In this document: in pieces, positions 4,098 through 53,313 of the stretch
How positions within the stretch are numbered: position 1 is the first letter of the stretch
How the letters are laid out: every line of letters starts with the position of its first letter
Source: Primulina eburnea
Lineage: Eukaryota > Streptophyta > Magnoliopsida > Lamiales > Gesneriaceae
Assembly: GCF_022965805.1 (NCBI RefSeq)
Contig: NC_133103.1
Location: 31,435,635 to 31,499,634 of the forward strand
Length of the DNA stretch: 64,000 nucleotides
Direction of reading: 5' to 3'
Translations under genes and position numbers: made by a program
Notes under the pieces: model-generated
Databases searched by the model: none
What the model was told of the DNA's origin: nothing
The model's input: only the letters and a program-made list of their open reading frames with translations

Positions 4098-5867
4098 TGT
4101 GGGGACCCGAACGCTAATTCATTTCTTAATCATTTTTGAGAATGATTAGATCAATTAAATAAACAGGGTCTAAATTTATTTTTTTTAAATACAAGAGTAC
4201 GCAACATATGAAATAGATCAATATCCAGATCTAAGTACAAGTCTTGTACAAAAATAAATCATAACAACTACTGTTCATTCACTACATGTCAGGTGATGAA
4301 ACAGATCTACTTTTAAGTCCGGATCTCCACGCTAACTGTTCTCTCTCTTCCTCTTCTTGACCCTGATCATGTCCCACCTGTTGTCAAGTACACATACAAA
4401 CAAGACAACAGCCAGATAACTCCGGTGAGAATATAATCCCAGTATAAACAATGTAAACATGCAATAATATAAACAAATATAAATCATGAAACACATATCA
4501 ATAACATGTATCAAAATATGAAAACATGAAATGATATAATACTGTAAATCAACTCGTGTCTCGTCATCTCAGACTCGACTTATCTCTAATATATGGATCC
4601 CGATTTCTGGACATTGTCTCATATATCTAATCTCAGCGATAAGAGTCGATCTGCTCCTAAGCAACATCGATATATTTAATTATCCAGTGTCTTGGCATAT
4701 CCGCCACAGACTAGGCATATCTGCCAATGACTAGGCATCTCCGCCCATGACTCAATACACGCTTTGCTATAAATCAATAGACTAAACATATTAATCTCAT
4801 TCAATTGCAAACATCAATGCAATAAAATAAAGTATTGATTTAAGGAAACTCAAGTTAAATCTAACTCGAGTTGTGCAATCCCGAATCAACATTGATTTAT
4901 ACCTTTCGTTCTATCAATCTGATTATGTCGAAGTCTCGAATTCAAGGCCTCTCAATATCAATCTGGCAATGACAATATCAAATATACGATTCAAATCAAG
5001 ACATCTCAGTCTTATCAAATTCTGACGGCATAACAGTATAATCTTGAAATACAGGTAATACAAAATCAGTATATACCAATTCCAATAACTCATAATCAAT
5101 CACAGTAAAAATCTGATATCGAATCTCAATCAAATCCATTCTGAAAATCATAACAATTTCATACGATAACCGTTCTTCAATCCGCTTTCAATTATACGAT
5201 GTTTAACATATCAGAAACACCATATATTAATCCTATCTGATTCCTTCAATAGAATATTTTCAAGTCATATCAAAAGCGTAATAAAACTTACGTCCAGTTG
5301 AAGCCTGCGTTGATAGGAACACAGTACTGAAGTTAGATTCAAAATCTAACGGGCGAATTTTGCACAATCGCGATTCTACAATTCAAGGAATAATTTTTCC
5401 AGAGCTTCCTTCGGTTTCTTCTTTTTCCTTTCTGAAATGCATCTGAACTCCTTAGTATATATATCAATGCATGTAAAGGGCAAGTGGCTTCATGTATGCA
5501 CTGCACGTCTCGCACATATGCGCGACCTCAACCAGCGCATATGCGCGAGACCTACTGGTCTCCGCAACAATCCTCTCGGCAGCTCGCGCATATGCGCGCA
5601 ACATCGCCGTGCATATGCGCGAGGTTCTCTGGACTTGGCGAACATCTCCTGTACAGCTCGCGTATATGCCCGTCCTCTCTCATGCATATGCGCGAGGTCC
5701 TCTGCCTGCCTCGTGCATATGCGTGAATCAGTGCCGCGCATATGCGCGAGGGGTACTGTCCTCGCACATTCGATATCGCACGTTACCTCAAATCGTGTCT
5801 CGGAGTGATCCTTCATAATCATATCAATTCATAAATCAATAATAGCAAATAAATCCCGAGCATTAAA
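4098..5867 (-). repeat. 3' LTR of element I (1770 bp)
   Basis: Boundaries are set by comparison with elements III and V: the sense 3' end is ...gggtccccaca at 4098, and the sense start follows the polypurine tract at 5867, where the usual TG has become TT. It contains the palindrome array (5511-5752), a TATA-like tract (tatatatat, about 5454-5465), a consensus splice donor (sense GTAAGT, from 5291 downward) and a conserved AG acceptor (sense GACAACAG, ending at 4378). Three loose copies of a roughly 20 bp repeat lie near 4690-4745. Confidence 0.85.
5511..5752 (-). promoter_or_regulatory. Palindromic CATATG motif array in LTR of element I
   Basis: Eight copies, some degenerate, of a palindrome related to GCGCATATGCGC. 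The CATATG cores start at 5515, 5538, 5589, 5612, 5663 (TATATG), 5685, 5716 and 5739. Spacings are 23, 51, 23, 51, 22, 31 and 23 bp, so the sites form four doublets 22-23 bp apart. The array ends about 45 bp upstream, in sense orientation, of a TATA-like tract. A regulatory role is inferred from position and geometry. Confidence 0.6.
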
Positions 5868-14082: not shown

Positions 14083-14703
14083 CTATGTTTTTGTAAAGGA
14101 TTATACTACTACTGATCTCGAGAAGCTCATGAAGTCACGTCTTCGGTCTGTAAGTTTTACGTTTACGCATTTCGTTTAAAGCATGAAATATTTTAATAGC
14201 ATGTTTTTATGAAATGATTTATGTCAAGATTATGATTATGCAGTATTTATTTAAATTTAAAGAAATAATAAAAATTATGCATGTTGGTTACGTATGGGTT
14301 GTATATATGGAACAATATGCCTCCTAGACGTATTCCTGAGCGTACGAGAGATGATGAGCCTCGCCAGGAGGACGGCGAGAATCAAAGGCAGGAGAGGAAC
14401 GTACCTCCACCCCTCCATCAGAAATGAACGCCCAGATGTTAGCTGGGATGACTAGGTTCTTCCTACAGTTTGCGGGGAATAACGCTGTGGCAGCCAGGCC
14501 GGCGGGGCTTGAGGCGACCTATGAGCGATTCATGAAGATGAGACCTAATTAGTTCTCAGAGATGGCAGATCCTATGTAATGCCCAAGAATTGTCGTAGCA
14601 TTAATCAGACAAGATTAATGAAATGCTCAAGAATTATAGAAGTGATAAGACAAGATTATAAGATGTTGTATGGGCTAAAAATATAATTTTCAGAAAGTGC
14701 AAG

Positions 14704-14963
14704 ACCGCACCCGCGGTCTGGGAAATACCGCACCCGCGGTGTGCGTCCAGAACCTGCGGCGCATATGCGCGAGATAAGTGGCGCATATGCGCGACGTCTC
14801 CAGTAGCATCGGCGCATATGCGCGGAATGGATGGCGCATATGCGCGGGACAGACAGAGGGATTGGCGCATATGCGCGACTTAAACGGCGCATATGCGCGA
14901 GAGGGAATTGTGCTGGTTCGAGTAACTGGCGCATATGCGCGACTTTGTGCGCGCATATGCGCG
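14704..14963 (+). promoter_or_regulatory. Palindrome doublet array in 5' LTR of element III
   Basis: Two ACCGCACCCGCGGT motifs (14704, 14727) are followed by eight exact GCGCATATGCGC palindromes with CATATG cores at 14762, 14784, 14815, 14837, 14868, 14890, 14932 and 14954. Centre-to-centre spacings are 23, 31, 22, 31, 22, 31, 22, 42 and 22 bp: five doublets, all steps near whole helical turns. The array ends about 50 bp upstream of the TATA box. All six frames across it are open by chance, giving peptides rich in AHMR, RICA and AYAR; these are not genes. Confidence 0.75.
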
Positions 14964-15181
14964 CAACGTGCAGAACATGCACTTCGCCACTTGCCTTGCA
15001 TGCACGAAATGTATATATATATGTATACAACCGAATTCTCCATCAGACATTTAGACAAGAAACGAAAGGAGAAACTCTAAATTCTTTCGAGTGAGAATTT
15101 GAGTATTACGAGAAATCTGTCCGTCTGATTTCTAATCCGACTTCAGTACTGTGTTCCTAGCAACGCAGGCTACAACTGGAC

Positions 15182-16443
15182 GTAAGTTTTATTACGTTTA
15201 AACAAGATTTGAATTTATGATATTGTCAGAATTGAATATGATTCAGATATGGTGTTTTTGCTACCGTAGACATTATAGAATTGAAGTCAGATTAAAGAAC
15301 AGACTGTTTCTGTAATTGTTATAATTTTTGAAAGATATTGACTGAGATTTTATATCAGAATTGTGTTACTATTCAGAGTATGAATTATGTTGACACAGAT
15401 TATGAATTCCAGTATTATATTTGGGATGTTCAGATTGACGAAGTTATTCAGATTGTATTGCTATGCCGTCGAAACATCAGTTGATTTAGATTAATCAGAT
15501 TTCGATATGATTCAGATTGTATTGTGATAGCGATGATATGAATCAGATTATAACTTGTTCAGATATTGATCAGATTGAATACTGAGTTGGGTATTGATCA
15601 GAACAGATTGTATATTGAGTTATTCACTAATACAGCGTATTCGATATTGTCATTTCAGATTCGAGATGGACAGATTTGAATACAGGATTTCGTCTTCATC
15701 AGACGGGGACGACAAAGGTATAATTCATGTGATATTCGGGAAGCATAACTCAGATTAGATTAATTTGAGTTTCCCAATAAAATCACATACTAGATTATTG
15801 TTTATATTGTTACCTGATTATGCTTTGATTATAGAATTGTATTCAAGCAGGTAAGATAATTGTGATATTCAGTTATGAATATGATTATGCTTTGTTTACA
15901 GATTGTTATTCATTGCATTTAAGATAGGAAAGTCTTGACAGTCATTGTCAGACTTCTAGACGTTCGGTGTATCGTACATAGGAGCAGACCTTGTCCTATT
16001 GTAGCACCACGATACAGCCATGGCCGAAGTCTAGGAATAAGACGTACAGTTACCACGATCGGTTGAGTAGGTAACAGCCATTGACGTCTTATTCATTACG
16101 GGATCCCTAGAGTTATAGTTGAGTCGAGTCTAGACATGATTTGACTAGAACTGCATGTGTTTATAGATGTGGTTTCATAGACTATGAAACCCAGGTTTAT
16201 TGCTTTCAGTCCTGATAGCATGTTTATATGATTTGATTAAATTGCATGGTTATCTGATTTGAATTGCATGCCTATTATGAGTAGATTTCATAGACTATGA
16301 AATCTATTCCTTTGAATATATTCATGACAGCATGTTTTAGGATTTAGATGGTTATATACATGCTTACCATGTTTTATACTGGGATTTATTCTCACCGGAG
16401 TTATCCGGCTGTTGTCTTGTTTTGTATGTGTGCATGACAACAG
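15182..16443 (+). other. Candidate leader intron within LTR of element III
   Basis: Donor ggac|GTAAGT and acceptor ...tgtgtgcatgacaacag|gtgggg after a T/G-rich tract. Both boundaries are conserved in elements I and V while the sequence between is much more variable. Predicted length 1262 nt. It would be removed from the 5' leader before gag. Inferred only. Confidence 0.45.
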
Positions 16444-16744
16444 GTGGGGCTGGATCAGGGTCGAGATGACGACGAGAGAAGACGAGTTTAGCGTGGTGAT
16501 TCCGGACTTGGATAGATTTGATTTTAATACTTGAAATTAGTATTTGAACCTTAGATTTAGGTTGTACAGTGTTGTACCTTTATACTGAAATGTAGTTTTA
16601 TACAGATATGTATATTATTAGATGCCATTACCTTCCGCATTTATATTTTAAAAAGAAAAATTTTTAGACCCTGTTTATCAGAACTGATAATTAAATCCCA
16701 ACGATGATTAAGAAGATGATTAGCGTCCGGGTCCTCACAACAGG

Positions 16745-16756
16745 TGGTATCAGAGC
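16745..16756 (+). other. Primer-binding site of element III (tRNA-Met)
   Basis: TGGTATCAGAGC, perfect, 5 nt after the 5' LTR end. Confidence 0.92.
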
Positions 16757-17040
16757 GATAGATCTTTTAGAATGAGATAGAAGAGAATGAGCGGGGTAGA
16801 TTGAATTTTCTTCCTTGCATGTGATTGCTAGCATGAGATTTATTTCAATGTTGACTACATTGTGCATGCTAGCATGATTTATTGCTTTCCCTATTACATG
16901 TGGTTTGTTATTTGAGTTGACTACAGCATGTAATTGCCAAGCCTGGATCAGAACCGAGTCTGGATCAAAGGTATATGATCAGAGGAGGGCTGAGACAGAT
17001 TGTATATATTGTGTACTAATCTGTTTGATATTCAGATATA

Positions 17041-17937
17041 CTGCCTCGAAGAATTTCAGAAAAAGGCAGTACTTCGTCTGAACAGAGAGATGTATCAGAA
17101 ACTCAGTTAGAAGAAAAGATGAAAGAATTTGAGTTATTACAGCCGCCGATTCTGAGTGGTACCGAGACATCCGAAGATTGTCAGAACTGGTTTGATGATA
17201 TAGAAATATTGTTTGATTTACTTGACTGTACAGATGAACAGAGGGTTCAAATGGTGCCTTATCAGTTACGAGAAGCCGCCAGGAGTTGGTGGATTACCAG
17301 TAGAAGAATGTGGGCACAGAGAGGTACAGTGATGTCGTGGGAAATATTCAGAACTGAATTCTATCGAAGATTTTTATCAGCTTCGTACCGAGAGGACAAG
17401 AAATTAGAGTTTGAGAATTTGAGCCAAGGGCCGCTGAATACTGACCAATATATTGCTAAATTCTCTACTCTACTGCATTTTGCTCCTCATTTAGCTGGAA
17501 ATGATGAAGCTATAGTAAATCAGTTCATCAGAGGGTTGAACTCAGAGGTAGTTGCATTTATGAATTTTCAGCGACCTTACCATTTTGCTGACATCCTGAG
17601 TAGAGCGAAGAGAGCTGAGGCGAGTCTGATTAGACAATTGACAAGGTTGTGAGTGAAGCCACTTCAGACACAGCAATCCCCTCTTCGATATGATCACGGC
17701 AGTACGAGTGGGAAGCAAGATGTGCTGAAAGCTCGAAAGAAGCCATTCAAGAAGCTAGGAAGCGATTCATCTAGCTCTAGTGTTTCTGGTCCAAGTTATA
17801 CTGGAGTGTATTGCAGAAGTTGCGGAGGAAGACATTCCACCGAACAATGCCAGGGAGTAACTGGTAGATGCAATATTTGTGGACAGCCGGGACACTTTGC
17901 TAAAGTTTGTCCCCAGAAGCGTTCCCGAAGATCGTAG
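17041..17937 (+). pseudogene. Element III gag, start codon lost and one nonsense codon
   Basis: Aligns with the gag of element V over its full length. The expected start ATGCCTCC... reads CTGCCTCG at 17041; the first ATG in frame is at 17119 and would give an N-terminally shortened gag. The frame is open to a single TGA at 17650-17652 and then continues to 17937. Gag core motifs (RSWWITSRRMW, FYRRFLSASYR) precede two C-terminal knuckles (CRSCGGRHSTEQC, CNICGQPGHFAKVC). It may encode a truncated gag without knuckles, or nothing. Confidence 0.85.
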
Positions 17938-20695
17938 GGAACAGAGTTCACTTGAAACCACAGATTCAGAATTCACAACAGGTACTAGTCTTTATGATTC
18001 TATTGCATATGTATTGATATATACTAATGCATTTGTTAAGAATATCTTTGACTGAGTTGCATGGAGATATGCTGTATCTGTTGGGTTTGTATGTACTGTA
18101 GTATTGATGTCCTTGCTTGTTGAGGAAGTGTTGATATCAGAGATTTCTGTATATATTGTATACTACAATAAGATGAGAATGAAATAGAAATAGCTTATGT
18201 TGTACTTGTGTTCCTGATTTGAACGCATTATTGATAAGCATATGCTGAACAAGTACAGACATATTGTAGAATTTTTCCATAAATGGTAAGAGTCAGACCA
18301 GATATGACTGATGAGTAGAGATTCACAGTAAGGATTCTAGATTTCGAATTCCTTTGATATCTGTGTTGTTTATGACTCGATTGATACAGAAAGGAACATA
18401 TGGTATCCTTATGTATTCAGTAGATATACTGAAATCGAGCCTAATATTGGCAGATCTGCCAGTATTGTACGAGTTGGCTGATATTGCCAGATAAGATTTC
18501 AGATTGCTTTATATCAGAAAGATAGATTGCAGAATTGAATTAAGATCAGATATTGATTGTATGGTAGATTCAGTACAGAATGATATTGAATATCAAGAAT
18601 GATACAGAACGAATTGAACGATTTGAAAGATTAACAGCAGAATACTGAACAGGAGTTACATTGGAGTAATGTTTCTCTTTGGCATGTCTCAGTATGTTTA
18701 GAGATATTCTGAAGATTTATACTCGTTATATCTATGATATATGGATATATTTGCAGTGTCTGGTTGATTGACTCGAGTAGTTGGAAATTATACTGAATAT
18801 TAAAGATTTTGTTGAATATTCTGAGAATTGTGAGTATTGTATACAGAAATTATTCAGATAAAAATTCCGCTTGAAACAGATTGTATTCAGAATATGCGAT
18901 ATCTGAAGTTAGTATACAGATAGATTTTGATACAGTTGAGACAGAGTTCAGTAACTGAGAACGAGACTGATGTCAGAAAGACCAGAAAGTTCAGAAATTT
19001 CAGAAATGTATTTTTTTTGATTGGGCAGATTATTTTATTCGACTGTTGCTTTATATCTGCTGGGTATTGTTATTGTTCTAAATCAGTATTTGAGATATTT
19101 TATATTGTTTTGGGGGAGCATATTTTATTTGCTGATGAGATATAACAGTTGATCAGAATGACATGAAGACATGTTTGATTAATCAGAAGCAATCTTATTG
19201 CCAGAGATTACCGTTTATGAGTTCCTTGAACTCACTAGATCTGTATAGGTTACTGCTATTTCGTATCTGATTGGATATTACTGTTGTTTTGAATCCGTAT
19301 ATGATACAGATTGTTGTGAACCGTTGAGATTATATACAGTTCAATTGTATCAGAGTTAATTTAAAGAATTACAGCAGTTCAGAAATGAGATCAGAATGTG
19401 TCAGAGTGTTTCAGAATTGTATAACAGAATTGACATTGAGAGTCAGAGCCGAATACCAGGTAGGTATTTCTTCTTTGATTTATATTATTAACTGATTGTT
19501 TGTGCCGAATAGTTCGAATCAGATATCACAGATAGTGTCAGACATGCACGTTAGTGGATTCAATTGTTATTCGGATAACAGACAGTTTGGATATAAACAG
19601 ATTAAATCAGTTAGAATAGAATTGGTACGGAAATGTTGGCAGAAATCGTACTGATATGTCTGAATCGCTAACAGAAAAGACAGAAAGATAGAAATCAGAA
19701 GATTTATTACAGAATTGTCTATAGTCCTAAATAGAAATGGGAGTACATTTCTATGGCTTTTGTAATGAAATTACCGCCATTTTCTACAGATTGTGATATG
19801 ATATGATTAAGATTGACAGATTGTTCAATCTATATCTATCAGTTTGTACCAGATCACGTACAAACATGACCCAATGACACAGATTGATGTCAGACAAGTG
19901 GTCAAAAAGATCAAAATGCCACAGTAGATTATGTCAGAACATAGTCAGAGTGACTAGAATATAGAAGTAGATTATATCAGATGATGATTTTGATTGAGTT
20001 TGCAATTATGGCAGAATATACCATAAGTTAGTTTGTAGAGTATTTACAGATTGACAGACAGTCAGAGTATACTATCCAGATATTGGAAGATATCCAGAAA
20101 GCTGCAGTACTGGATGTTAGCACTGGTGAATATGACAGATTGTCACTATCTGAGTTATGAGATGATGTTATTTATCTGATTACCAGAGGGGTTATGAGAT
20201 AGGTACAGATGAGATAGTGTACAGTGAGTACTATAGATTCTTTGAATCAGAATAATATCTCAAAGATACTTGGGATAGGAGCTGATACGGTCAGAGATAT
20301 GACAAAGAAAAGATAGTTGATTCAGAGTAGAATGAGAATAGCTCAGATCAGACAGATTTCTCATGCCAGCATCGGATAGTGACGATTGGTATTTGAAGAC
20401 AAGATTGAATATATCCTTGATCGAGATAAATAGATTTGATAACCGCTGATGACAGTAATTTGTTATGAACTGTGAATGGTTTATACGGATGTGGTGTAAC
20501 CAACATGGCAAGATTGATTCTGTCAGAGTTAGTTTAAGAAGTATTAGAATAGTATACTTTATGAAGTTTTATTCCAGAATTGAAATCAGAGATTGATACA
20601 AGAAAGAGATTTCAGAATGGATTCATTAAGAGAGGAGTTTGGATGTTAAACTCTATTATACATATTCTTCTGGTATATCAGAATTGATAGCTTGC
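17938..20695 (+). pseudogene. Eroded pol remnant of element III
   Basis: No open frame, but islands of pol can be read by eye: protease and linker near 18000-18500 (RVRPDMTDE, IPLISV, DLPV) and integrase near 19735-19860 (WEYISMAF, LPPF). At 2.8 kb it is much shorter than a full pol of over 4 kb, so large parts are deleted. Much of it aligns with the corresponding stretch of element V. The word CAGA is very frequent on this strand. Confidence 0.75.
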
Positions 20696-20713
20696 GAGTT
20701 CGAGGACGAACTC
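20696..20713 (+). other. Hairpin upstream of polypurine tract (element III)
   Basis: GAGTTCGAGGACGAACTC: perfect 7 bp stem with an AGGA loop, about 8 nt before the polypurine tract at 20721-20733. It is intact although the pol upstream has decayed. Confidence 0.75.
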
Positions 20714-20733
20714 AGATCTAAGAGGGGGAGAAA

Positions 20734-22899
20734 TGTAATGCCCAAGAATTGTCGTAGCATTAATCAGACAAGATTAATGAAATGCTCAAGAATTATAGAA
20801 GTGATAAGACAAGATTATAAGATGTTGTATGGGCTAAAAATATAATTTTCAGATAGTGCAAGACCGCACCCGCGGTCTGGGAAATACCGCACCCGCGGTG
20901 TGCGTCCAGAACCTGCGGCGCATATGCGCGAGATAAGTGGCGCATATGCGCGACGTCTCCAGTAGCATCGGCGCATATGCGCGGAATGGATGGCGCATAT
21001 GCGCGGGACAGACAGAGGGATTGGCGCATATGCGCGGCTTAAACGGCGCATATGCGCGAGAGGGAATTGTGCTGGTTCGAGTAACTGGCGCATATGCGCG
21101 ACTTTGTGCGCGCATATGCGCGCAACGTGCAGAACATGCACTTCGCCACTTGCCTTGCATGCACGAAATGTATATATATATGTATACAACCGAATTCTCC
21201 ATCAGACATTTAGACAAGAAACGAAAGGAGAAACTCTAAATTCTTTCGAGTGAGAATTTGAGTATTACGAGAAATCTGTCCGTCTGATTTCTAATCCGAC
21301 TTCAGTACTGTGTTCCTAGCAACGCAGGCTACAACTGGACGTAAGTTTTATTACGTTTAAACAAGATTTGAATTTATGATATTGTCAGAATTGAATATGA
21401 TTCAGATATGGTGTTTTTGCTACCGTAGACATTATAGAATTGAAGTCAGATTAAAGAACAGACTGTTTCTGTAATTGTTATAATTTTTGAAAGATATTGA
21501 CTGAGATTTTATATCAGAATTGTGTTACTATTCAGAGTATGAATTATGTTGACACAGATTATGAATTCCAGTATTATACTTTGGGATGTTCAGATTGACG
21601 AAGTTATTCAGATTGTATTGCTATGCCGTCGAAACATCAGTTGATTTAGATTAATCAGATTTCGATATGATTCAGATTGTATTGTGATAGCGATGATATG
21701 AATCAGATTATAACTTGTTCAGATATTGATCAGATTGAATACTGAGTTGGGTATTGATCAGAACAGATTGTATATTGAGTTATTCACTAATACAGCGTAT
21801 TCGATATTGTCATTTCAGATTCGAGATGGACAGATTTGAATACAGGATTTCGTCTTCATCAGACGGGGACGACAAAGGTATAATTCATGTGATATTCGGG
21901 AAGCATAACTCAGATTAGATTAATTTGAGTTTCCCAATAAAATCACATACTAGATTATTGTTTATATTGTTACCTGATTATGCTTTGATTATAGAATTGT
22001 ATTCAAGCAGGTAAGATAATTGTGATATTCAGTTATGAATATGATTATGCTTTGTTTACAGATTGTAATTCATTGCATTTAAGATAGGAAAGTCTTGACA
22101 GTCATTGTCAGACTTCTAGACGTTCGGTGTATCGTACATAGGAGCAGACCTTGTCCTATTGTAGCACCACGATACAGCCATGGCCGAAGTCTAGGAATAA
22201 GACGTACAGTTACCACGATCGGTTGAGTAGGTAACAGCCATTGACGTCTTATTCATTACGGGATCCCTAGAGTTATAGTTGAGTCGAGTCTAGACATGAT
22301 TTGACTAGAACTGCATGTGTTTATAGATGTGGTTTCATAGACTATGAAACCCAGGTTTATTGCTTTCAGTCCTGATAGCATGTTTATATGATTTGATTAA
22401 ATTGCATGGTTATCTGATTTGAATTGCATGCCTATTATGAGTAGATTTCATAGACTATGAAATCTATTCCTTTGAATATATTCATGACAGCATGTTTTAG
22501 GATTTAGATGGTTATATACATGCTTACCATGTTTTATACTGGGATTTATTCTCACCGGAGTTATCCGGCTGTTGTCTTGTTTTGTATGTGTGCATGACAA
22601 CAGGTGGGGCTGGATCAGGGTCGAGATGACGACGAGAGAAGACGAGTTTAGCGTGGTGATTCCGGACTTGGATAGATTTGATTTTAATACTTGAAATTAG
22701 TATTTGAACCTTAGATTTAGGTTGTACAGTGTTGTACCTTTATACTGAAATGTAGTTTTATACAGATATGTATATTATTAGATGCCATTACCTTCCGCAT
22801 TTATATTTTAAAAAGAAAAATTTTTAGACCCTGTTTATCAGAACTGATAATTAAATCCCAACGATGATTAAGAAGATGATTAGCGTCCGGGTCCTCACA
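20734..22899 (+). repeat. 3' LTR of element III (2166 bp)
   Basis: Copy of the 5' LTR at an offset of 6159 bp. Differences seen: a/t near 14693, a/g near 14878, one extra base near 15417, and t/a near 15908 (5' LTR coordinates). The palindrome array recurs at 20863-21122. Confidence 0.95.
20863..21122 (+). promoter_or_regulatory. Palindrome doublet array in 3' LTR of element III
   Basis: Same array as in the 5' LTR, 6159 bp downstream, with identical spacing; one base differs between motifs (gcgcgg for gcgcga near 21037). Confidence 0.75.
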
Positions 22900-23692
22900 T
22901 CCTATGATTGCTGAGGGCTGGATTAGGTCCCTCGAGGTTATTTTTGAATTCATGGAGCTCGGAGATGAAGATAGGGTTCGTTGTGCAACCTATCTGTTTG
23001 GAAGAGACGCCATCTTATGGTGGAAAGGAGCATCCGTAGCCTTGAACCTGGCTACTCTGAGCTGGACACGCTTTACAGAGGTATTCTACTATAAATATTT
23101 TACTAACGAGGTGCATTCCAGGTTGACCAGGGAGTTCATGATCCCGAGGCAGGGAGATATGACTATTATGGAGTTCATCCATAATTTTGAGAGGGGTTTC
23201 CATTTTGTGCCCCTGATTGCAAATGATTCTAGAGCCAAGTTGAGGCAATTTATGGATGGTCTACGGCCGATCTTGCGCCGTGATGTTAGGGTGGCTGGCC
23301 CTACTACATATGACGTCGTTGTCTCCAGAGCTCTAGCTGCAGAGAAGGATCTGATTGATATTGAGAGAGATCGATAGGGCAAGCGACCAGTCCAAGTGCC
23401 ACACCGCCCTCCTCCGCAGCAACATCAGAATAAGAGGCCTTTCCACGGCCCACCCAGAAACAGAGGACAGCAGCAGCAGGGACGTGTAGTCCCGAGGGCC
23501 CCAAAGTATCCAGTCTGTGCCAAGTGCACATGCCGCCATGCTGGAGCTTGTATGTATGGCTCAGGGAAGTGCTACAAGTGTGGGAGTCCTTACCACTTGC
23601 TGAAGAATTGCCATCAGGGGAGTCTGCCTGCTCAAGGCAGAGTTTTTGCGCTTCATGCAGCGGAGACGAACCCAGAGAAGATGTTCTTGACA

Positions 23693-36600: not shown

Positions 36601-37075
36601 GAGTTCCCAGTAGGGGATCATGTTTTCGTGAAGGTCGCACCGATGAAGTGCGTGATGAGGTTCGGGAAGAAGGGCAAGCTCAACCCTAGATTCATTGGGC
36701 CATTTGAGATCTGAGAGAGAGTTGGGACACTCGCATACAGAGTTGATTTACCGCCAAATCTGGCGGGAGTTCATAATGTGTTCCAAGTCTCCATGTTGCG
36801 GAAGTACATGTCGAATCCTTCGCATGTGATTAACTATGAGCCACTTCAACTGACATCGTACCTATCATTCAAGGAGAGACCCACACAGATACTGACAGGT
36901 AGGAAAAGACACTCCGGAACAAGGTGATCCAGCTGGTCAAGGTCTGTAATGCCCAAGAATTAATCACTGCAATTAACGATGATTGATTTATCATTTCATG
37001 TGATTATGACGGGATTAATCGGGACACCGAGAAATGTATTCAGAAATAAAATTATGAAAGATATGAGAATGCCAG

Positions 37076-37230
37076 ACCGCACCTGCGGTAAGGGGAGGAC
37101 CGCACCCGCGGTGGTGCTACGGGAATTTGAAAGAATCGATACAGCAGGGTGACCGCACCCGCGGTGCTTACGAGACCGCACCCGCGGTGCAAGACCGCAC
37201 CCGCGGTGCTAATGCGACCGCACCCGCGGT
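37076..37230 (+). promoter_or_regulatory. ACCGC-GCGGT palindrome doublets in LTR of element V
   Basis: Six copies of ACCGCACCCGCGGT (the first with one change) start at 37076, 37099, 37152, 37175, 37194 and 37217. Spacings are 23, 53, 23, 19 and 23 bp, so three doublets 23 bp apart. Each motif is an inverted repeat ACCGC-N4-GCGGT. The array ends about 58 bp before the TATA tract. The second copy is in the 3' LTR at 42544-42698. Confidence 0.7.
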
Positions 37231-37450
37231 GTTGCGTGTCTTGCGGAAAATGAGCCATGTGCCGGAATGCATGCGCGAGTTGTCTAGATATATATATAGA
37301 CATGCAAGTCGGTTTTCAGAACATAAATGGAGGAGAAAGAGTCGAAGCTTTGGCACGAGAAATCCTTACGCCTTTTGTGAAAAATCCGTCCGTCTGAATT
37401 TGAATCCGACTTCGGTATCGAGTTCCTAGCAACGTAGGCTACAACTGGAC

Positions 37451-38768
37451 GTAAGTTTTACTACGTTTTGACATGCTTTGAAATTATGGTATTGTCAGAA
37501 TTGAATGGAACTCATATATGTTGTTCTTGACATGTTAGACATCGTAGAATCGAAGTCAGATTAAGAAACGGACTGAATATGAACTTGTTATGATTTCAGA
37601 ATAAGATTGAATAAGAATTGATATCCAGATTGAGTGGTTATCGATTATGAGATATTAGAATTAATATCTGATTGAAATGGTATTGTTGGGTATATTGATA
37701 TGATACCGTTATGCCATCGATATTGAATTAGGTTAAGTATTGAGCAGAACAGATTTGATTCGAGTGGTGTATTGATATTATACTCCTCGATATTTTTCTT
37801 GTCAGATCGATATTGACAGGTTTTGAGTTCGAGACTTCGACAGAGCCAGAGTATCAGAACGAAAGGTATAAATTAATGTTGAGTTGGGATTGCACAACTC
37901 GAGTAAGGTTTGACTCGAGTTTCCCTAAATCACATACTTTTACTTATTGCATTGATATTTGCAATTAATCAGACTTATGATTGTAGTCTATTGATTTATA
38001 GCTACTGTGTGATAAGATTGATATTTGTAGCCTATTGATTTATAGCTACTGCATGTAATGACTGCTGATTCGCTAGTCATTGACTGATTTGCTTAGATAC
38101 TGACTGTATGTATGGATTACTGAGTCGTTGAGTCATAGGCTGATTCGCCTAGTCACCGGCTGATTCGTCGGGTTATTGACTGATTCGTCTTACTATAGGC
38201 TGATTCGCCTAGTCACCGGCTGATTCGTTGGGTTATAGACTGATTCGTCTAAACTTAAGCTGATTCGCTTAATTACAGGCTGATTCGTCTGGTTACTTGG
38301 CTGATTCGCCTAATTACTGGCTGATTCGTCAGGTTATTGACTGAGTCGTCAATTCTGCGGCTGATTCGCCCAGACACTGGAGATATTAATTATATCGATG
38401 CCGTTTAGGGATTGATTCATTCCTATCGACTGAGATTCGATATAATTACCTATATCCAGACATCGGGATCCCTAGGATAGAGTTGAGTCGAGTCTGAGAC
38501 GACGCGTCAGTGGAGTCGAGTCTGAGACGACGCGTCGGTTGAGTTGAGTCCGATACGACATGTTGAGTTACAGTGTTATATCATTCATGAATATTGAATG
38601 CCTGAGATTGATTTATGTTTCTGATTTGATACATGTTATGAATATTTCTTATATGCTTTCGTATATGTTTTTATATGATTGCATTTATACATTGTTTATA
38701 CTGGGATATTTATATCTCACCGGAGTTATCCGGCTGTTGTCTTGTTTTGTATGTGTGCATGACAACAG
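37451..38768 (+). other. Candidate leader intron within LTR of element V
   Basis: Donor ggac|GTAAGT at 37451 and acceptor gacaacag|gtgggg ending at 38768; predicted length 1318 nt. Both ends are conserved in elements I and III, the middle is not. The 20 bp tandem array lies inside it. Inferred. Confidence 0.45.
38120..38380 (+). repeat. 20 bp tandem repeat array in LTR of element V
   Basis: Thirteen consecutive units, mostly CTGATTCG plus 12 variable bases, starting every 20 bp from 38120 (one 21 bp step near 38280-38301). The 5' 8 bp are nearly fixed and the rest varies. Repeated in the 3' LTR at 43588-43847. Confidence 0.85.
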
Positions 38769-39078
38769 GTGGGGCTGGATCAGGGTCAAGAAGAGGATGA
38801 GAGAAGACGAGTTTAGCGTGGTGATTCCGGACTTGGTTTAGAGATAGGGTTAGACACTTGATATTAGTTGTTAAACCCTAGTTGAATAAATATATGTTGT
38901 ACAGGACTTGTACTTTTATACTGAGATGTATGTTCATGTTTAATATGTAATTTGAGTAAATTACATTACGTTTCCGCTGTGTATTTTTAAAAAAAAAATT
39001 TAGACCCTGTTTTATAATTGATTAATTAGTCCCAAACATGATTAAGAACTTGATTAGCGTCCGGGTCCCCACAACAGG

Positions 39079-39090
39079 TGGTATCAGAGC
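39079..39090 (+). other. Primer-binding site of element V (tRNA-Met)
   Basis: TGGTATCAGAGC, perfect, 5 nt after the LTR end. Confidence 0.92.
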
Positions 39091-39359
39091 TGTAGGTACT
39101 AGAACTGTAGATTCTTTAGATTGAGATAGAAGAGGCTAGTGAGCGGGGTAGATTGAATTTTCTTTCCTTGCTTGTGATTGCTAGCATGACTTACTGCTTT
39201 ATATAATACATGTTACTTGATTTATCTGATTTGATTTTGTAATATGTATTATTGGCACGAATCTGAATTGATTCTCGATCAGCAGTAAGATGATCGGAGG
39301 AGAGATTGAATTGAAACAGATGTGTTGGATTGGGCTACTAATCCTTTTGAGTTTCAGAT

Positions 39360-40469
39360 ATGCCTCCCAGAAGAATCCCAGAACAGGGTAGTACATCGAA
39401 TCCTCCAATGGATGTAACACCAACTCCAATGGAAACCTTGCTGAAGAGGTTTCAGTCATTCAAACCACCCACTCTGAAAGGTACTGAGACATCGGTCGAG
39501 TGTGAGAGTTGGGTAGGTAGTATTGAGTTGCTGTTTGATTCACTGGAGTACAGTGATGAGCGCCGGATTAAATTGATTGGACACCAGTTGCTTGATGTTG
39601 CACAAAGCTGGTGGGTTACAATGAAGAGGGCCTTGGAGCAACGAGGTACGATTATTACTTGGGATGTATTTAAAACTGAGTTTTATCAGAGATTTTTTCC
39701 AATACCGTACAGAAAGGACAAGGGGGCGGAGTTTGCCAATTTGAGACAGGGTCAGCTGAACATTGAAGAATATGTGACCAAGTTCTCGACCTTGTTGAAG
39801 TTTGCTCCACATGTGGCTGGAAATGACGAAGCCATTGCCGATCAATTCATCAATGGCTTGAATCCCGATATATTTACATTGGTGAACACAGGGCGACCCA
39901 ATAACTTTGCTGATGCCATGAATAGAGCAAAGGGCGCTGAAGCAGGCCTGATAAGGCAGAGAGGAGCTGAATTTGTTCCTCCAGTGTCGAGACCACAGCA
40001 ACCACTTCCCCGATTCGTGAGTGGCAGTAGCAGTGGTGGAAAGACCGATTTTCTGAAGGCTAGAGGAAAGCAGTTTAAGACGTCTGTCGGCAGTTCTTCT
40101 AGCTCTAGTGGTTCTCAGCAGAGTTATACCGGCGTTTACTGCGGAAATTGTGGAGGGAGACATTCCACTGAGCAATGCCAAGGAGTACTTGGTAGTTGCC
40201 ACTTCTGCAAGCAACAGAGACATTTTGCCAGAGTATGTCCACAGAGGGGTTCCCAAAGATCCCAGGGAACCGAAGCATCTGGATCAGCGGCCCAGTGGAG
40301 TAGACGATCAGCTGCCGTTCCTTCATTTCAGCCAGCACCATCTCAGTCACAGCAGAGGCCAGGAGGAAGCCAGACAGTTGGCCAGCCTCCTAGACAGCAG
40401 GCCAGAGTATTTGCTTTGACCGAGGAACAGGCTCAGGAAGCACCAGATGATGATGTTGCCGGTAACTGA
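39360..40469 (+). CDS. Intact gag polyprotein of element V (369 aa)
   Basis: The only undamaged retrotransposon gag ORF in the window. It would form the structural particle that packages element RNA in the cytoplasm. The N-terminus (MPPRRIPEQG) matches the start of related gags. The retrotransposon gag core spans about residues 40-190 (SWWVTMKRAL, FYQRFFPIPYRKD, FINGLNPDIF). A Ser-rich linker near 225-255 precedes two knuckles: CGNCGGRHSTEQC near 261 and CHFCKQQRHFARVC near 280, where Arg replaces the usual Gly before His. A Gln/Ser-rich tail follows. The stop falls exactly at the gag/protease boundary (GN-stop, where element I reads on into protease). It is preserved while the pol beside it has decayed, which suggests selection on gag or recent copying from a gag-only master. 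Confidence 0.85.
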   Translation: MPPRRIPEQGSTSNPPMDVTPTPMETLLKRFQSFKPPTLKGTETSVECESWVGSIELLFDSLEYSDERRIKLIGHQLLDVAQSWWVTMKRALEQRGTIITWDVFKTEFYQRFFPIPYRKDKGAEFANLRQGQLNIEEYVTKFSTLLKFAPHVAGNDEAIADQFINGLNPDIFTLVNTGRPNNFADAMNRAKGAEAGLIRQRGAEFVPPVSRPQQPLPRFVSGSSSGGKTDFLKARGKQFKTSVGSSSSSSGSQQSYTGVYCGNCGGRHSTEQCQGVLGSCHFCKQQRHFARVCPQRGSQRSQGTEASGSAAQWSRRSAAVPSFQPAPSQSQQRPGGSQTVGQPPRQQARVFALTEEQAQEAPDDDVAGN

Positions 40470-42374
40470 TTTGTTTGATTTTCCTGCATATGTACTGAGG
40501 GTTACCGGTGCTTCACATATTTTTATTTCTGAGAGATTTGCATTGATGCATGCATTATCTGTTGAGTCCTTATTTACTGTAGTAGTGTTTCTTTCCTTGA
40601 GAAAAGATCTTGTATCAGTGATTTCTGTTAGATCTTGTATACTACAGTAGGATGAGAATGAGATCGAGTTAGATCGTGTGGTAGCTTGCATTGTACTGGT
40701 GTTCTATGATTTTAGAACTGCATTACTGATATTGATATGCTGATCAAGTACATAGCTACCATAGATTAATTCCAGAAGATGGTGAGAATTAAACTTGAGA
40801 TGATCAAGAAATGAATATTGTACGATTAGAATTCTAGACTGAGAATTCCTTTGATATTCGTACTAGCTATAACTCGATTATTACAGAAAGGAGCAGAATG
40901 ACTCCTTATGTATTCAGTTGATTTACTGAAATTGAGTCTATCATTGGCTGATTTACCAATGATAAGAAAGTTCTCGATGTTTTCTCTGATAAGACTTCAG
41001 ATCTGATTCCAATCAGAGAGATTGATTTTAGTCTTGAACTGATCTTAGAAATTGTTGAAATTTTGAATCCTGATTGAGAAAGATAGTAGACAATCAAGAT
41101 TATATTGTACAGTCCGAACCAGAGTTGATTTCGAATCGATAGCAGTTTAAAAAGCTGATTAGAATATTTAGAACTCAATATCGATAGTCAGAACAGAGTG
41201 TCGATCAGAGTAACAGATACGTGATTTTGTATTTTGTATGAGATTGATTATTCTGTGATGTCAGAGGTGTCACAAATGTACAGCAAAGATTGATAGTGAT
41301 AGTCAGAGCCGAATACCAGGTAGGTATTACCTCTTTAATTTATGTTATTAACTGATTGTATATGTCAAATAGTTCGAATCAGAAAGGACAGATAGTGTCA
41401 GAAACTTACAGTAATGGATTCAGTGTTCAGTCTGATGATTGAGAATGTATTGTATTCGAACAGATAGTTGTGATATAGACAGATGAGATCAGTTATAACA
41501 GAATTATACTGAAATGTTGGCAGAAATTATACGGATATGTCTGAATTGCTAACAGAAAAGACAGAAAGATAGAAATCAGAAGATTATTACAGATTTTTTA
41601 TAGTTCTGAACAGAAATGGGACTACATTTCTATGGCTTTCGTAATGAAATTACCGCCATTTTCTTTAGATTAAGATATGATATGATTATGATTGACAGAT
41701 TATTCAATCTATATCTATCAGTTTGTACCAGATTACGTACAAACAGAACCAGATGACATAGATCAATGTCAAAGAAATAGTCAGATTGACGAGAATGCAA
41801 GAATTAGATGATATCAGATTGTGATTTTGACGGAGTTGTACTTGTGATAGATTATATCATAAGCTCTCTTGTGCAGATTTATTACAGATTGACAGATAGT
41901 CAGAGTAGATTACCAGATATTGACAGATAATTGTAGAGCTTTGGTACTGGATGTTATTACTAGTTGATATAGATTATTATCATGACATGATTGATTGTAT
42001 GACAGTAGCTATCAAGATAGTTCAGAATGGACTGATTTAAGAAACCAACGTTGGATAATAACGATTGGTAATTGAAGATGAAGATTGATTATGTTCTAGA
42101 TTGGGATAAACAGATAGGATAACAACTACAGATGGTATTGTTATGTTATAGATTGCAGATTGGCATATACGGATGTTGTATAGCCAGTAATGCAGGATTG
42201 ATTCGACTAGAACGAGTGGAAGAAGGATTATGATATTATAATTCTTGACTTCTGATTCCAGACCAGAATCAGAGCTTGATCAAAGAAAAATACCTCAGAA
42301 TGATGTTAGTAAAACGAGTTTGGATGTTAAACTCTGTTATTCATTTCTTCTAACAGATTTGGATTGCTTGTGGA
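40470..42374 (+). pseudogene. Eroded pol remnant of element V
   Basis: About 1.9 kb without open frames. Protease homology is readable at 40470-40640 (GASHIFISERFAL in one frame, near 40507-40545). Integrase-like homology is near 41610-41760 and aligns with the equivalent part of element III. RT motifs are not recognisable. Confidence 0.75.
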
Positions 42375-42392
42375 GAGTTCGAGGACGAACTC
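42375..42392 (+). other. Hairpin upstream of polypurine tract (element V)
   Basis: GAGTTCGAGGACGAACTC: perfect 7 bp stem, AGGA loop, identical to that of element III, about 7 nt before the polypurine tract at 42399-42412. Confidence 0.75.
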
Positions 42393-42412
42393 AGATCTAA
42401 GAGGGGGAGAAA

Positions 42413-44541
42413 TGTAATGCCCAAGAATTAATCACTGCAATTAACGATGATTGATTTATCATTTCATGTGATTATGACGGGATTAATCGGGACACCGAGA
42501 AATGTATTCAGAAATAAAATTATGAAAGATATGAGAATGCCAGACCGCACCCGCGGTAAGGGGAGGACCGCACCCGCGGTGGTGCTACGGGAATTTGAAA
42601 GAATCGATACAGCAGGGTGACCGCACCCGCGGTGCTTACGAGACCGCACCCGCGGTGCAAGACCGCACCCGCGGTGCTAATGCGACCGCACCCGCGGTGT
42701 TGCGTGTCTTGCGGAAAATGAGCCATGTGCCGGAATGCATGCGCGAGTTGTCTAGATATATATATAGACATGCAAGTCGGTTTTCAGAACATAAATGGAG
42801 GAGAAAGGGTCGAAGCTTTGGCACGAGAAATCCTTACGCCTTTTGTGAAAAATCCGTCCGTCTGAATTTGAATCCGACTTCGGTATCGAGTTCCTAGCAA
42901 CGTAGGCTACAACTGGACGTAAGTTTTACTACGTTTTGACATGCTTTGAAATTATGGTATTGTCAGAATTGAATGGAACTCATATATGTTGTTCTTGACA
43001 TGTTAGACATCGTAGAATCGAAGTCAGATTAAGAAACGGACTGAATATGAACTTGTTATGATTTCAGAATAAGATTGAATAAGAATTGATATCCAGATTG
43101 AGTGGTTATCGATTATGAGATATTAGAATTAATATCTGATTGAAATGGTATTGTTGGGTATATTGATATTTTACCGTTATGCCATCGATATTGAATTAGG
43201 TTAAGTATTGAGCAGAACAGATTTGATTCGAGTGGTGTATTGATATTATACTCCTCGATATTTTTCTTGTCAGATCGATATTGACAGGTTTTGAGTTCGA
43301 GACTTCGACAGAGCCAGAGTATCAGAACGAAAGGTATAAATTAATGTTGAGTTGGGATTGTACAACTCGAGTGAGGTTTGACTCGAGTTTCCCTAAATCA
43401 CATACTTTTACTTATTGCATTGATATTTGCAATTAATCAGACTTATGATTGTAGTCTATTGATTTATAGCTACTGTGTGATAAGATTGATATTTGTAGCC
43501 TATTGATTTATAGCTACTGCATGTAATGACTGCTGATTCGCTAGTCATTGACTGATTTGCTTAGATACTGACTGTATGTATGGATTACTGAGTCGTTGAG
43601 TCATAGGCTGATTCGCCTAGTCACCGGCTGATTCGTCGGGTTATTGACTGATTCGTCTTACTATAGGCTGATTCGCCTAGTCACCGGCTGATTCGTCGGG
43701 TTATAGACTGATTCGTCTAAACTTAAGCTGATTCGCTTAATTACAGGCTGATTCGTCTGGTTATTGGCTGATTCGTCTAATTACTGGCTGATTCGTCAGG
43801 TTATTGACTGAGTCGTCAATTCTGCGGCTGATTCGCCCAGACACTGGAGATATTAATTATATCGATGCCGTTTAGGGATTGATTCATTCCTATCGACTGA
43901 GATTCGATATAATTACCTATATCCAGACATCGGGATCCCTAGGATAGAGTTGAGTCGAGTCTGAGACGACGCGTCAGTGGAGTCGAGTCTGAGACGACGC
44001 GTCGGTTGAGTTGAGTCCGATACGACATGTTGAGTTACAGTGTTATATCATTCATGATTATTGAATGCCTGAGATTGATTTATGTTTCTGATTTGATACA
44101 TGTTATGAATATTTCTTATATGCTTTCGTATATGTTTTTATATGATTGTATTTATACATTGTTTATACTGGGATATTTATATCTCACCGGAGTTATCCGG
44201 CTGTTGTCTTGTTTTGTATGTGTGCATGACAACAGGTGGGGCTGGATCAGGGTCAAGAAGAGGATGAGAGAAGACGAGTTTAGCGTGGTGATTCCGGACT
44301 TGGTTTAGAGATAGGGTTAGACACTTGATATTAGTTGTTAAACCCTAGTTGAATAAATATATGTTGTACAGGACTTGTACTTTTATACTGAGATGTATGT
44401 TCATGTTTAATATGTAATTTGAGTAAATTACATTACGTTTCCGCTGTGTATTTTTTTAAAAAAAAATTTAGACCATGTTTTATAATTGATTAATTAGTCC
44501 CAAACATGATTAAGAACTTGATTAGCGTCCGGGTCCCCACA
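42413..44541 (+). repeat. 3' LTR of element V (2129 bp)
   Basis: Copy of the 5' LTR at an offset of 5468 bp, same length. Palindrome doublets recur at 42544-42698 and the 20 bp array at 43588-43847. Confidence 0.95.
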
Positions 44542-51820: not shown

Positions 51821-53313
51821 CACTACAAGAAAAATACAAATCAACAACAGTCATATAACAACGGTTTTTATTAAAACCGTTGTCTTTATTTTTTAACAAC
51901 GGTTTTAACAAAAACCGTTGTCGTAGCCTAAAAAACCCCGCTTATAGACAACGGTTTTTTAAAAACCGTTGTCTTTTATATGTCTACAACACCGGTTAAA
52001 ACCGGTGTTTTAGACATAAAAAGACAATAGTTTTTAAAAAATCGTTGTCTATGAGCGCTTTTTTTTTGGGCTACGACAACAGTTTTTAAAAACTGTTGTC
52101 TAAGAGTTTTTTTTTTTTTCTACAACAACGGTTTTAAAAACCGTTATCTATGAGCGGTTTTTTTTAGGCTACAACAACGGTTTTTAAAAACCGTTGTCTT
52201 TCGGATTATTTTTTTGGGCTACAACAACGTTTTTTCCAAAACCGTTGTCTATATAAAATTCTGTCAAGGGTCAAAGACAACAGTTTTTATAAACCGTTGT
52301 CTATTGGATGATTTTTTAACTACGACAACGGTTTTTTAAAACGTTGTCGTTTCTTGTTGTTTTATTTAGTTAAAGACAACGGTTTTTTAAAAAACGTTAT
52401 CGTAGTTTCAAATTTTTTTTAAAAAAATCTGTTCATATTTAGCGACGGTATTTAAATTACCGTCGCTAAATTCGCCCAATTTAGCGACGGTTCGTATACA
52501 CCCGTCGCCGATTTAAATCGGCAACGGTTTAAGCTAAAGACGTCGCTAGTAGCGACGGTTTAATCAAATACTGTCGCACAAATGTCTATAAACATCTACG
52601 TCCATGACCATTTTCTTCACACCCGTAAGTCATTTTCTTACTTAGTTATCTTCTCATTTTTCTTACCCTTTTTGTGTACGATTTTTTTTAAACTTAAATT
52701 TTAAGTTAAAATTAATTAGTTCTCTTCTCATTTTTCTTTCATGTTTTGTTTATGATTTTCCTTAAACTTAAATTTTAAGTTAAAAATTAAAAATATATTA
52801 ATTTAGTATGATTGTTAGTTTATTTTGTTAGGAGTATCAAACTATAAGCGCAATTTTTTTTTTATTTTACCTAAACATATAGCGACGGAAAATGTAAAAA
52901 CATCGTCGCTAATTAGCGACGGCGGGTATAATGCAAACCGACGCTAAGTGGCGACGGATAAAGTAAACCGTCGCTATTAGCGACGTAAATGTTTAGAAAA
53001 ACCGTCGCACAATTTTTGTTTTACAACAATTTTTCAATGCTACGACAACGGTTTTTCACCGTCGTCTTTAGACGTCTACGACAACGGTTTTTTACCGTTG
53101 TCTTTGAGCGCACCCTTTTAACCACAGTGCCTTTAACAACGGTTTTACAAGACCTACGACATCAGTGTTTCACCGTTGTCTTTGATGTCTACGACAACGA
53201 ATTTTCACCGTTGACTTTGAGCGCACCATTTAACAACACTGGTTTTAACAACAGTTTTTTTGACCTACGACAACGGTTTTTAACCGTTGTCTTTCGCGTT
53301 TTTTCTTGTAGTG
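51821..53313. mobile_element. Non-autonomous CACTA (En/Spm) transposon, 1493 bp
   Basis: Terminal inverted repeats CACTACAAGAAAAA at 51821 and its complement ending at 53313, with a 3 bp target duplication taa (51818-51820 and 53314-53316). These are the hallmarks of CACTA elements. No transposase is encoded. Outer arms (51846-52400 and 53040-53300) are packed with ACAACGGTTTT/AAAACCGTTGT inverted repeats. Inner arms (52440-52575 and 52875-53010) carry a second motif, TAGCGACGG. The core at 52636-52790 contains an imperfect direct duplication of about 75 bp. An autonomous relative would have to supply transposase. Confidence 0.93.

Follow-up and report, generated by a model that had tools for sequence, protein, structure and literature searches.

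What maintains a series of exact palindromes at nearly helical spacing immediately upstream of the TATA box of a retrotransposon LTR? The question is raised by a 64,000-nucleotide window of the Primulina eburnea genome (the whole stretch of DNA that was analysed; RefSeq assembly GCF_022965805.1, contig NC_133103.1), in which a sequence-only reading had singled out one such series and proposed that it serves as a cooperative binding platform within the promoter. The sequence statistics favour this proposal, under which the sites would be occupied by a protein.

A palindrome array in both LTRs of a gag-only element

The array belongs to element III, an LTR retrotransposon on the plus strand (14575-22899) whose 5' LTR (14575..16739, 2165 bp) and 3' LTR (20734..22899, 2166 bp) are 99.8% identical and are bordered by the target-site duplication TCCTA (14570-14574 and 22900-22904, read in the LTR flanks). 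The primer-binding site TGGTATCAGAGC (16745..16756, plus strand), which we take to be of the tRNA-Met type, and a polypurine tract adjoining the 3' LTR (20720..20733, plus strand) were likewise read from the sequence. The gag frame (17029..17937, plus strand) matches the Pfam families Retrotrans_gag (3.2e-17) and Ty3_capsid (3.7e-11), and a zinc knuckle follows downstream in the same frame with one stop between; no pol ORF was recognised among the internal ORFs of at least 70 aa. Element III is a gag-only, non-autonomous element of the Ty3 type, with LTRs and gag and without reverse transcriptase or integrase, a status that for this element and for element IV (see below) refers to Pfam runs covering the ORFs of gag, knuckle and protease.

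All of the eight GCGCATATGCGC and two ACCGCACCCGCGGT palindromes originally claimed are present on the plus strand of the 5' LTR and again, intact, in the 3' LTR (20863..21121, plus strand). They form one doublet of ACCGCACCCGCGGT (class B; 14704..14740, centres 23 bp apart) and four doublets of GCGCATATGCGC (class A; 14759..14792, 14812..14845, 14865..14898 and 14929..14962, 22 bp each), and the successive centre-to-centre spacings of 23, 31, 22, 31, 22, 31, 22, 42 and 22 bp are identical in both LTRs and exactly those first read. Dinucleotide shuffles of the window contain on average 0.06 matches to GCGCATATGCGC (up to one mismatch allowed) and 0.00 to ACCGCACCCGCGGT; and if ten sites are placed randomly in the same span, the odd-numbered gaps, five in number, all come out at 22 or 23 bp with a probability of about 5e-6. 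The LTR pair differs by three substitutions and one indel, with one substitution in a linker of the array and none in a site. The TATA run of the LTR promoter (15012..15021, plus strand) lies 56 bp past the centre of the last dyad, in keeping with the distance of about 50 bp that had been estimated.

Two parts of the initial description need qualification. Every gap had been judged close to a whole number of helical turns, such that all sites would occupy one face of the DNA: when doublets are kept and the gaps between them are randomised, the phase at 10.5 bp is indeed non-random in element III (P = 0.003), but the 22-23 bp inside a doublet amounts to 2.1-2.2 turns, not two. The linkers had been called unlike each other, and satellite expansion set aside: the four 10-bp linkers are 43% identical (27% when shuffled, P = 0.007), a value that becomes 36% (26% when shuffled, P = 0.096) once two edge bases per side are removed, so that they are largely, though not provably, unrelated; but in the 3' LTR array Tandem Repeats Finder detects 2.7 copies of a 53-bp unit at 77% matches.

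Arrays in two other elements of the window

Element IV, a second gag-only element (36945-44541; target-site duplication AGGTC, primer-binding site and polypurine tract read), has 12 substitutions between its LTRs and internal ORFs for a Ty3-type gag (Pfam) and a protease remnant; relatives of this gag, among the matches listed (120 of 152), come from Henckelia, Dorcoceras and Primulina. The 5' LTR of element IV carries six class B sites (37076..37230, plus strand), a single mismatch being present in one of them, and the 3' LTR six exact ones (42544..42698, plus strand), with ACCGCACCCGCGGT spacings of 23, 53, 23, 19 and 23 bp and a TATA box 65 bp away from the array; a 42-bp doublet unit has been duplicated locally (92% match, Tandem Repeats Finder). 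Element I, decayed and on the minus strand, retains in its 3' LTR eight class A sites with 0-2 mismatches (5512..5747, minus strand), spaced by 23, 31, 22, 51, 23, 51 and 23 bp. It is the only one of the elements with the protease-RT-RNase H-integrase order and a chromodomain, as in chromoviruses: Pfam returned RVP_2, RVT_1, RNase H, H2C2, SH3_Tf2-1 and Chromo (4.6e-6), and no Pfam match was obtained for a 112-aa integrase-core piece. As a guess, we assign these elements to the Tekay/Del clade.

Under random placement, the probability that all odd-numbered gaps are 22 or 23 bp is 4e-4 for element IV and 1.5e-5 for element I. The phase test applied to element III gives P = 0.006 for element I and P = 0.33 for element IV. 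When the doublet steps of all three elements, nine in total, are combined, R is 0.88 with P = 0.0002; counting each repeated value only once gives P = 0.003.

The window holds further repeats. In both LTRs of element IV a 20-bp tandem repeat (CTGATTCGTC...) occurs about 1.1 kb in (38059-38350 and 43527-43877), and no 20-bp tandem array of the CTGATTCGTC type is listed for element III. A 14-bp dyad, CCGGAGTTATCCGG, recurs in both gag-only elements, some 350 bp short of the end of the LTR (16395-16408 and 22555-22568 in III, 38720-38733 and 44187-44200 in IV). Elsewhere, 52024-52401 and 53040-53294 are occupied by tandem repeats with units of about 50 and 113 bp, composed of inverted words of the form CAACGG...CCGTTG, and the minus strand of 56867-61096 contains long ORFs that we presume to resemble a Ty1/copia-type polyprotein.

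The site unit and its classes across the genome

Other copies were sampled as three sets. Set 1 consists of 20 loci picked through one class A doublet, and is biased by that choice; set 2 consists of 70 U3s picked by the PPT/LTR junction alone, drawn from the first 100 of 3720 places; and a hold-out comprises 20 further junction-anchored U3s from the same 100 listed places. The junction-anchored U3s were all drawn from a single contig, and two of the 70 (L027 and L028) belong to LTRs already present as L009 and L010. When the U3s were clustered at 85% over 350 bp and one member per cluster was retained, 56 remained, a step that removes close copies only; and because the elements are related, the regularity of spacing is in part inherited.

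Among these 56 U3s, CGC-N4-GCG appears 331 times, as against a mean of 4.4 and a maximum of 9 in 50 shuffles, which shows enrichment of this dyad. The control words CGC-N3-GCG, CGC-N5-GCG and GCG-N4-CGC appear 14, 4 and 27 times; CGC-N6-GCG appears 196 times, which we take to be a product of the overlapping CGCGCATATGCGCG flank. The commonest spacers are ACCC (103), ATAT (80), CCGA (46), ACAT (33) and TCGA (22), and sites are assigned to class A (spacer ATAT or ACAT), class B (ACCGCACCCGCGGT, spacer ACCC) or class D (CGCYCGRGCG). Counting classes with at least two sites, 45 of 51 elements carry one class only and six carry one class plus sites whose spacer belongs to no named class; mixing of A, B and D at two or more sites occurs in none of the 51, the exception being element III, outside this set, with its two B and eight A sites. 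Spacer orientation is nearly constant over 90 U3s (ACAT 55 vs 4, CCGA 77 vs 2, ACCC 155 vs 0 for GGGT). Where a doublet consists of two class D sites, they stand inverted to each other in 37 of 37 cases; class B sites are direct repeats.

The sequence-only reading had described CATATG as an E-box variant, which does not extend to the arrays in general: CATATG and CACATG are confined to class A, CANNTG, in a reading by eye, is missing from classes B (ACCGCACCCGCGGT) and D, and what the classes have in common is the CGC-N4-GCG core. An E-box recognised by bHLH proteins was therefore rejected as the general site.

With up to two mismatches allowed, A or B sites are present in 40 of the 70 junction-anchored U3s. 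In another 22, CGCTCGAGCG or CGCCCGGGCG occurs at least three times, and a 22-bp gap is present at least once in every one of the 22; four (L046, L068, L072 and L088) have TCGGANCGTCCGA with other gaps; and in the last four (L033, L074, L076 and L095) no word occurs in three copies. Over all 90 U3s, at least three dyads occur in 79 and a 22-24 bp doublet in 78. The TCGGANCGTCCGA palindromes, which contain CGG and CCG, constitute a fourth class (E) whose gaps of 18-20, 24, 40 and 48-49 bp are off the rule. A few E sites were also seen in L093, and a CTATAAATAG box in L088.

Spacing of sites, doublets and the TATA box

In the 51 elements with at least three dyads, 139 of 278 gaps measure 22-24 bp (null mean 24.2 and maximum 46 in 2000 simulations), and the off-phase bins of 25-29, 33-39 and 45-48 bp hold none of the 278 (null mean 80.7, minimum 56). 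These bins were chosen after the first samples had been seen, and the hold-out played no part in the choice: in the 17 of its 20 U3s that have at least three dyads, 56 of 111 gaps are 22-24 bp (null maximum 22) and 0 of 111 are off-phase (null mean 33.5, minimum 17). The possibility, raised with the original reading, that other copies might be spaced at random is thus not borne out. The 51-element set has one gap each of 8, 30, 32, 40, 44 and 58 bp, and with up to two mismatches allowed, three of 328 gaps are off-phase, every one of them between E sites. At the same tolerance, the 155 gaps of set 1 are 22 bp (60 times), 23 bp (23), 31 bp (42), 41-43 bp (13) and 48-53 bp (14, one of them 48), with single gaps of 20, 21 and 45 bp.

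Over the whole genome (812 Mb), exact class A pairs stand 22 bp apart at 7973 places and 32-40 bp apart at 161 (nine spacings summed), counts that may be lower bounds and a comparison that covers 22 bp against 32-40 bp; a reversed-pattern control gives 0 in both cases.

Doublets are themselves spaced regularly. Pooled distances between doublet starts are 42-43, 53-54, 64-66 and 71-76 bp, with one at 22 bp, and the Rayleigh R at 10.5 bp is 0.89 for class A (n = 52), 0.81 for class B (n = 46) and 0.88 for class D (n = 23), values unreached in 20000 random sets. These distances form a ladder with steps of about one helical turn, best seen in classes A and B; class D doublets, which are 71-72 bp apart, are nearly 3 bp out of the A/B phase, and with the classes pooled R drops to 0.69 at 10.5 bp and peaks at 0.70 near 10.3 bp.

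The distance from the last site to the first TATA[TA]A has a median of 59 bp in class A (match in 14 of 15), 57 bp in class B (16 of 21) and 58 bp in class D (13 of 15). It is 56-64 bp in 13 of 14 class A arrays, 55-58 bp in 12 of 16 class B arrays and 56-60 bp in 12 of 13 class D arrays, outliers ranging from 15 to 95 bp, and 54-59 bp in 15 of 17 hold-out U3s. Doublet length and TATA distance are common to classes A, B and D despite their different spacers and flanks. Separately, the class A arrays of L008, L014 and L016 lack any TATATA run in the 90 bp to either side, and possibly represent a second type of promoter.

Inheritance and the divergence of linkers

If an ancestral doublet had been tandemly duplicated and its linkers had then drifted, the spacing could be merely inherited, with no selection acting on it. 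Traces of duplication do exist: the 53-bp period of element III (77%) and the 42-bp doublet duplication of element IV (92%), and adjacent doublets often share the same step. Linkers within an element also resemble each other slightly more than shuffled linkers do. Compared from doublet to doublet in the same element, inner linkers have an identity of 0.328 (shuffled mean 0.29, maximum 0.321) and outer linkers one of 0.296 (shuffled mean 0.263, maximum 0.304); the inner linkers exceed all 500 shuffles, and a faint similarity remains. Nevertheless, linkers at 33% and 30%, against 29% and 26% when shuffled, are not those of satellites with plainly homologous linkers, the alternative that the sequence-only reading had itself set against its proposal, and together with the spacing data they lead us to reject plain satellite expansion as the main cause, with the qualification that one local duplication (in element IV) and the faint likeness of linkers exist.

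Several patterns make simple inheritance a quite improbable account of the spacing. Doublets within an element have 86% of their spacer letters in common (45 elements; 45% when shuffled) as against 30-33% of their linker letters; from one element to another, steps vary by roughly whole turns, and the off-phase bins, which drift through indels would fill, contain no gap between exact dyads; and doublet length and TATA distance are the same across three classes. Between elements, conservation was assessed in 22 sequences (the 20 loci of set 1 and elements III and I), of which 177 of 231 pairs have a linker identity of at least 60%. In these pairs, differing positions amount to 0.6-4.7% in sites, 32% in linkers (6197/19150) and 27% in flanks, so sites are conserved against diverging linkers, a contrast that is exaggerated because the alignments are anchored by the sites. 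One site position differs in 15%, namely the spacer letter that switches ATAT to ACAT.

Discussion

We consider it likely that the array, which lies within U3, serves the LTR promoter as a cis-regulatory platform on which a dimeric DNA-binding protein docks in helical phase. Each CGC-N4-GCG dyad would be bound by a symmetric, presumably dimeric, protein, and two dimers 22-23 bp apart would touch each other and bind cooperatively; successive doublets, stepped by about one helical turn, would align the complexes towards a TATA box about 57 bp downstream. The protein would be supplied by the host, and its binding may activate transcription. A search on LOB-domain proteins as candidate binders found no support.

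An alternative is that the sites act not as DNA sites for a protein but as hairpins, in cruciforms or in transcripts that cross U3, supplying a structural signal or a source of small RNAs. Relative to 100 shuffles, the arrays fold strongly (z of -8.3, -7.8 and -2.9 for elements III, I and IV), and 110-nt windows in element III reach -62.7 kcal/mol; but since any palindrome folds, strong folding follows from the motif itself. The 37 class D doublets, all inverted repeats, could each make one long stem, and the palindrome clusters of maize Sireviruses are reported to draw small RNAs (PMC10760457). However, class B sites repeat in direct orientation, and their ACCC spacers remain unpaired and keep a near-fixed orientation (ACCC 155, GGGT 0), and hairpins leave both the ladder between doublets and the narrow TATA distance unexplained, so we regard this alternative as unlikely.

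Because the dyads are dense in CpG, they might instead provide a chromatin platform, excluding nucleosomes or acting through methyl-CpG in silencing or anti-silencing. CpG observed/expected is 1.56, 1.35 and 1.15 in the arrays of elements III, I and IV, and in the rest of the element III LTR it is 0.90. Yet this excess stems from the sites (the linkers of element III alone give 0.89), the array of element IV is below its whole LTR (1.24), and CpG density calls for neither a CGC-N4-GCG core, nor a spacer orientation, nor doublets of 22-23 bp; to this explanation we attach a very low probability.

Returning to the protein platform, what selection retains may be a grammar of spacing and not a word. 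On this view, dyad spacers and flanks have changed at least twice in this retrotransposon clade (ATAT/ACAT, ACCC, YCGR), and class changes have nearly always affected all sites of one element together, with doublet length, step and TATA distance remaining nearly fixed. We put forward tentatively, as something short of an even chance, that selection keeps this grammar; if so, the platform would amount to an enhanceosome of modular build, in which paralogues have replaced one another as the partner that reads the DNA, perhaps as an escape from host control, and element III, whose one B doublet and four A doublets lie on a single ladder, would be a recombinant between classes.

In layout, the closest known system is provided by the RM boxes of Sireviruses. 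As described in the main text of PMC2829016, these are CpG-rich palindromes with a CGG-CCG core, present in at least eight copies per element, mostly in the upper half of the LTR and shortly before the TATA box, their words being element-specific and their flanks diverged. Apart from the core, these features are shared by the present arrays, whose palindrome cluster likewise lies just upstream of TATA, at medians of 57-59 bp. The differences are that Sireviruses are Ty1/copia elements, whereas those studied here have a Ty3-type gag and a chromodomain relative; that CGG-N4-CCG, the one CGG-CCG spacing counted, occurs once in the 56 U3s in which CGC-N4-GCG occurs 331 times; and that a term search of the main text of PMC2829016 found no spacing rule, in contrast to the 22-23 bp doublets, ladder and narrow TATA distance of the present arrays.

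A literature search, judged mostly by titles and the beginnings of abstracts, found no report of a doublet-ladder layout in a Ty3-type clade, and a search by motif letters found nothing on this pattern. The arrays of elements III and IV, used as queries against translated protein databases, gave no match at E 10 or better, and among the 120 listed of the 152 gag relatives none has two array-like words. In viral contigs the doublet patterns were absent and no gag match was confirmed. Among prokaryote genomes, two bacterial contigs, L001 and L002 (Actinomycetaceae, Olsenella), have pairs of GCGCATATGCGC with linkers of 8-12 bp.

Plant LTR promoters of the Tnt1 type have tandem activator boxes in few copies, the likeness being that activation proceeds from U3 boxes that are repeated or symmetric; we know of no doublet or helical rule for them. 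The vertebrate NRF1 site, which is bound by a dimer, is a GC-rich dyad whose GCGC arms flank an AT centre, but this centre has two bases as against four here, a resemblance only, and to our knowledge there is no NRF1 in plants.

Strict helical spacing of sites has usually been argued from a few well-studied enhancers. The arrays described here exist in thousands of genomic copies, which amount to natural replicates from which spacing, orientation and TATA distance can be read statistically. If a host protein reads the sites, it would become a candidate for activating (or silencing) an abundant clade of plant retrotransposons, and the changes of site class would document a chase between elements and host factors.
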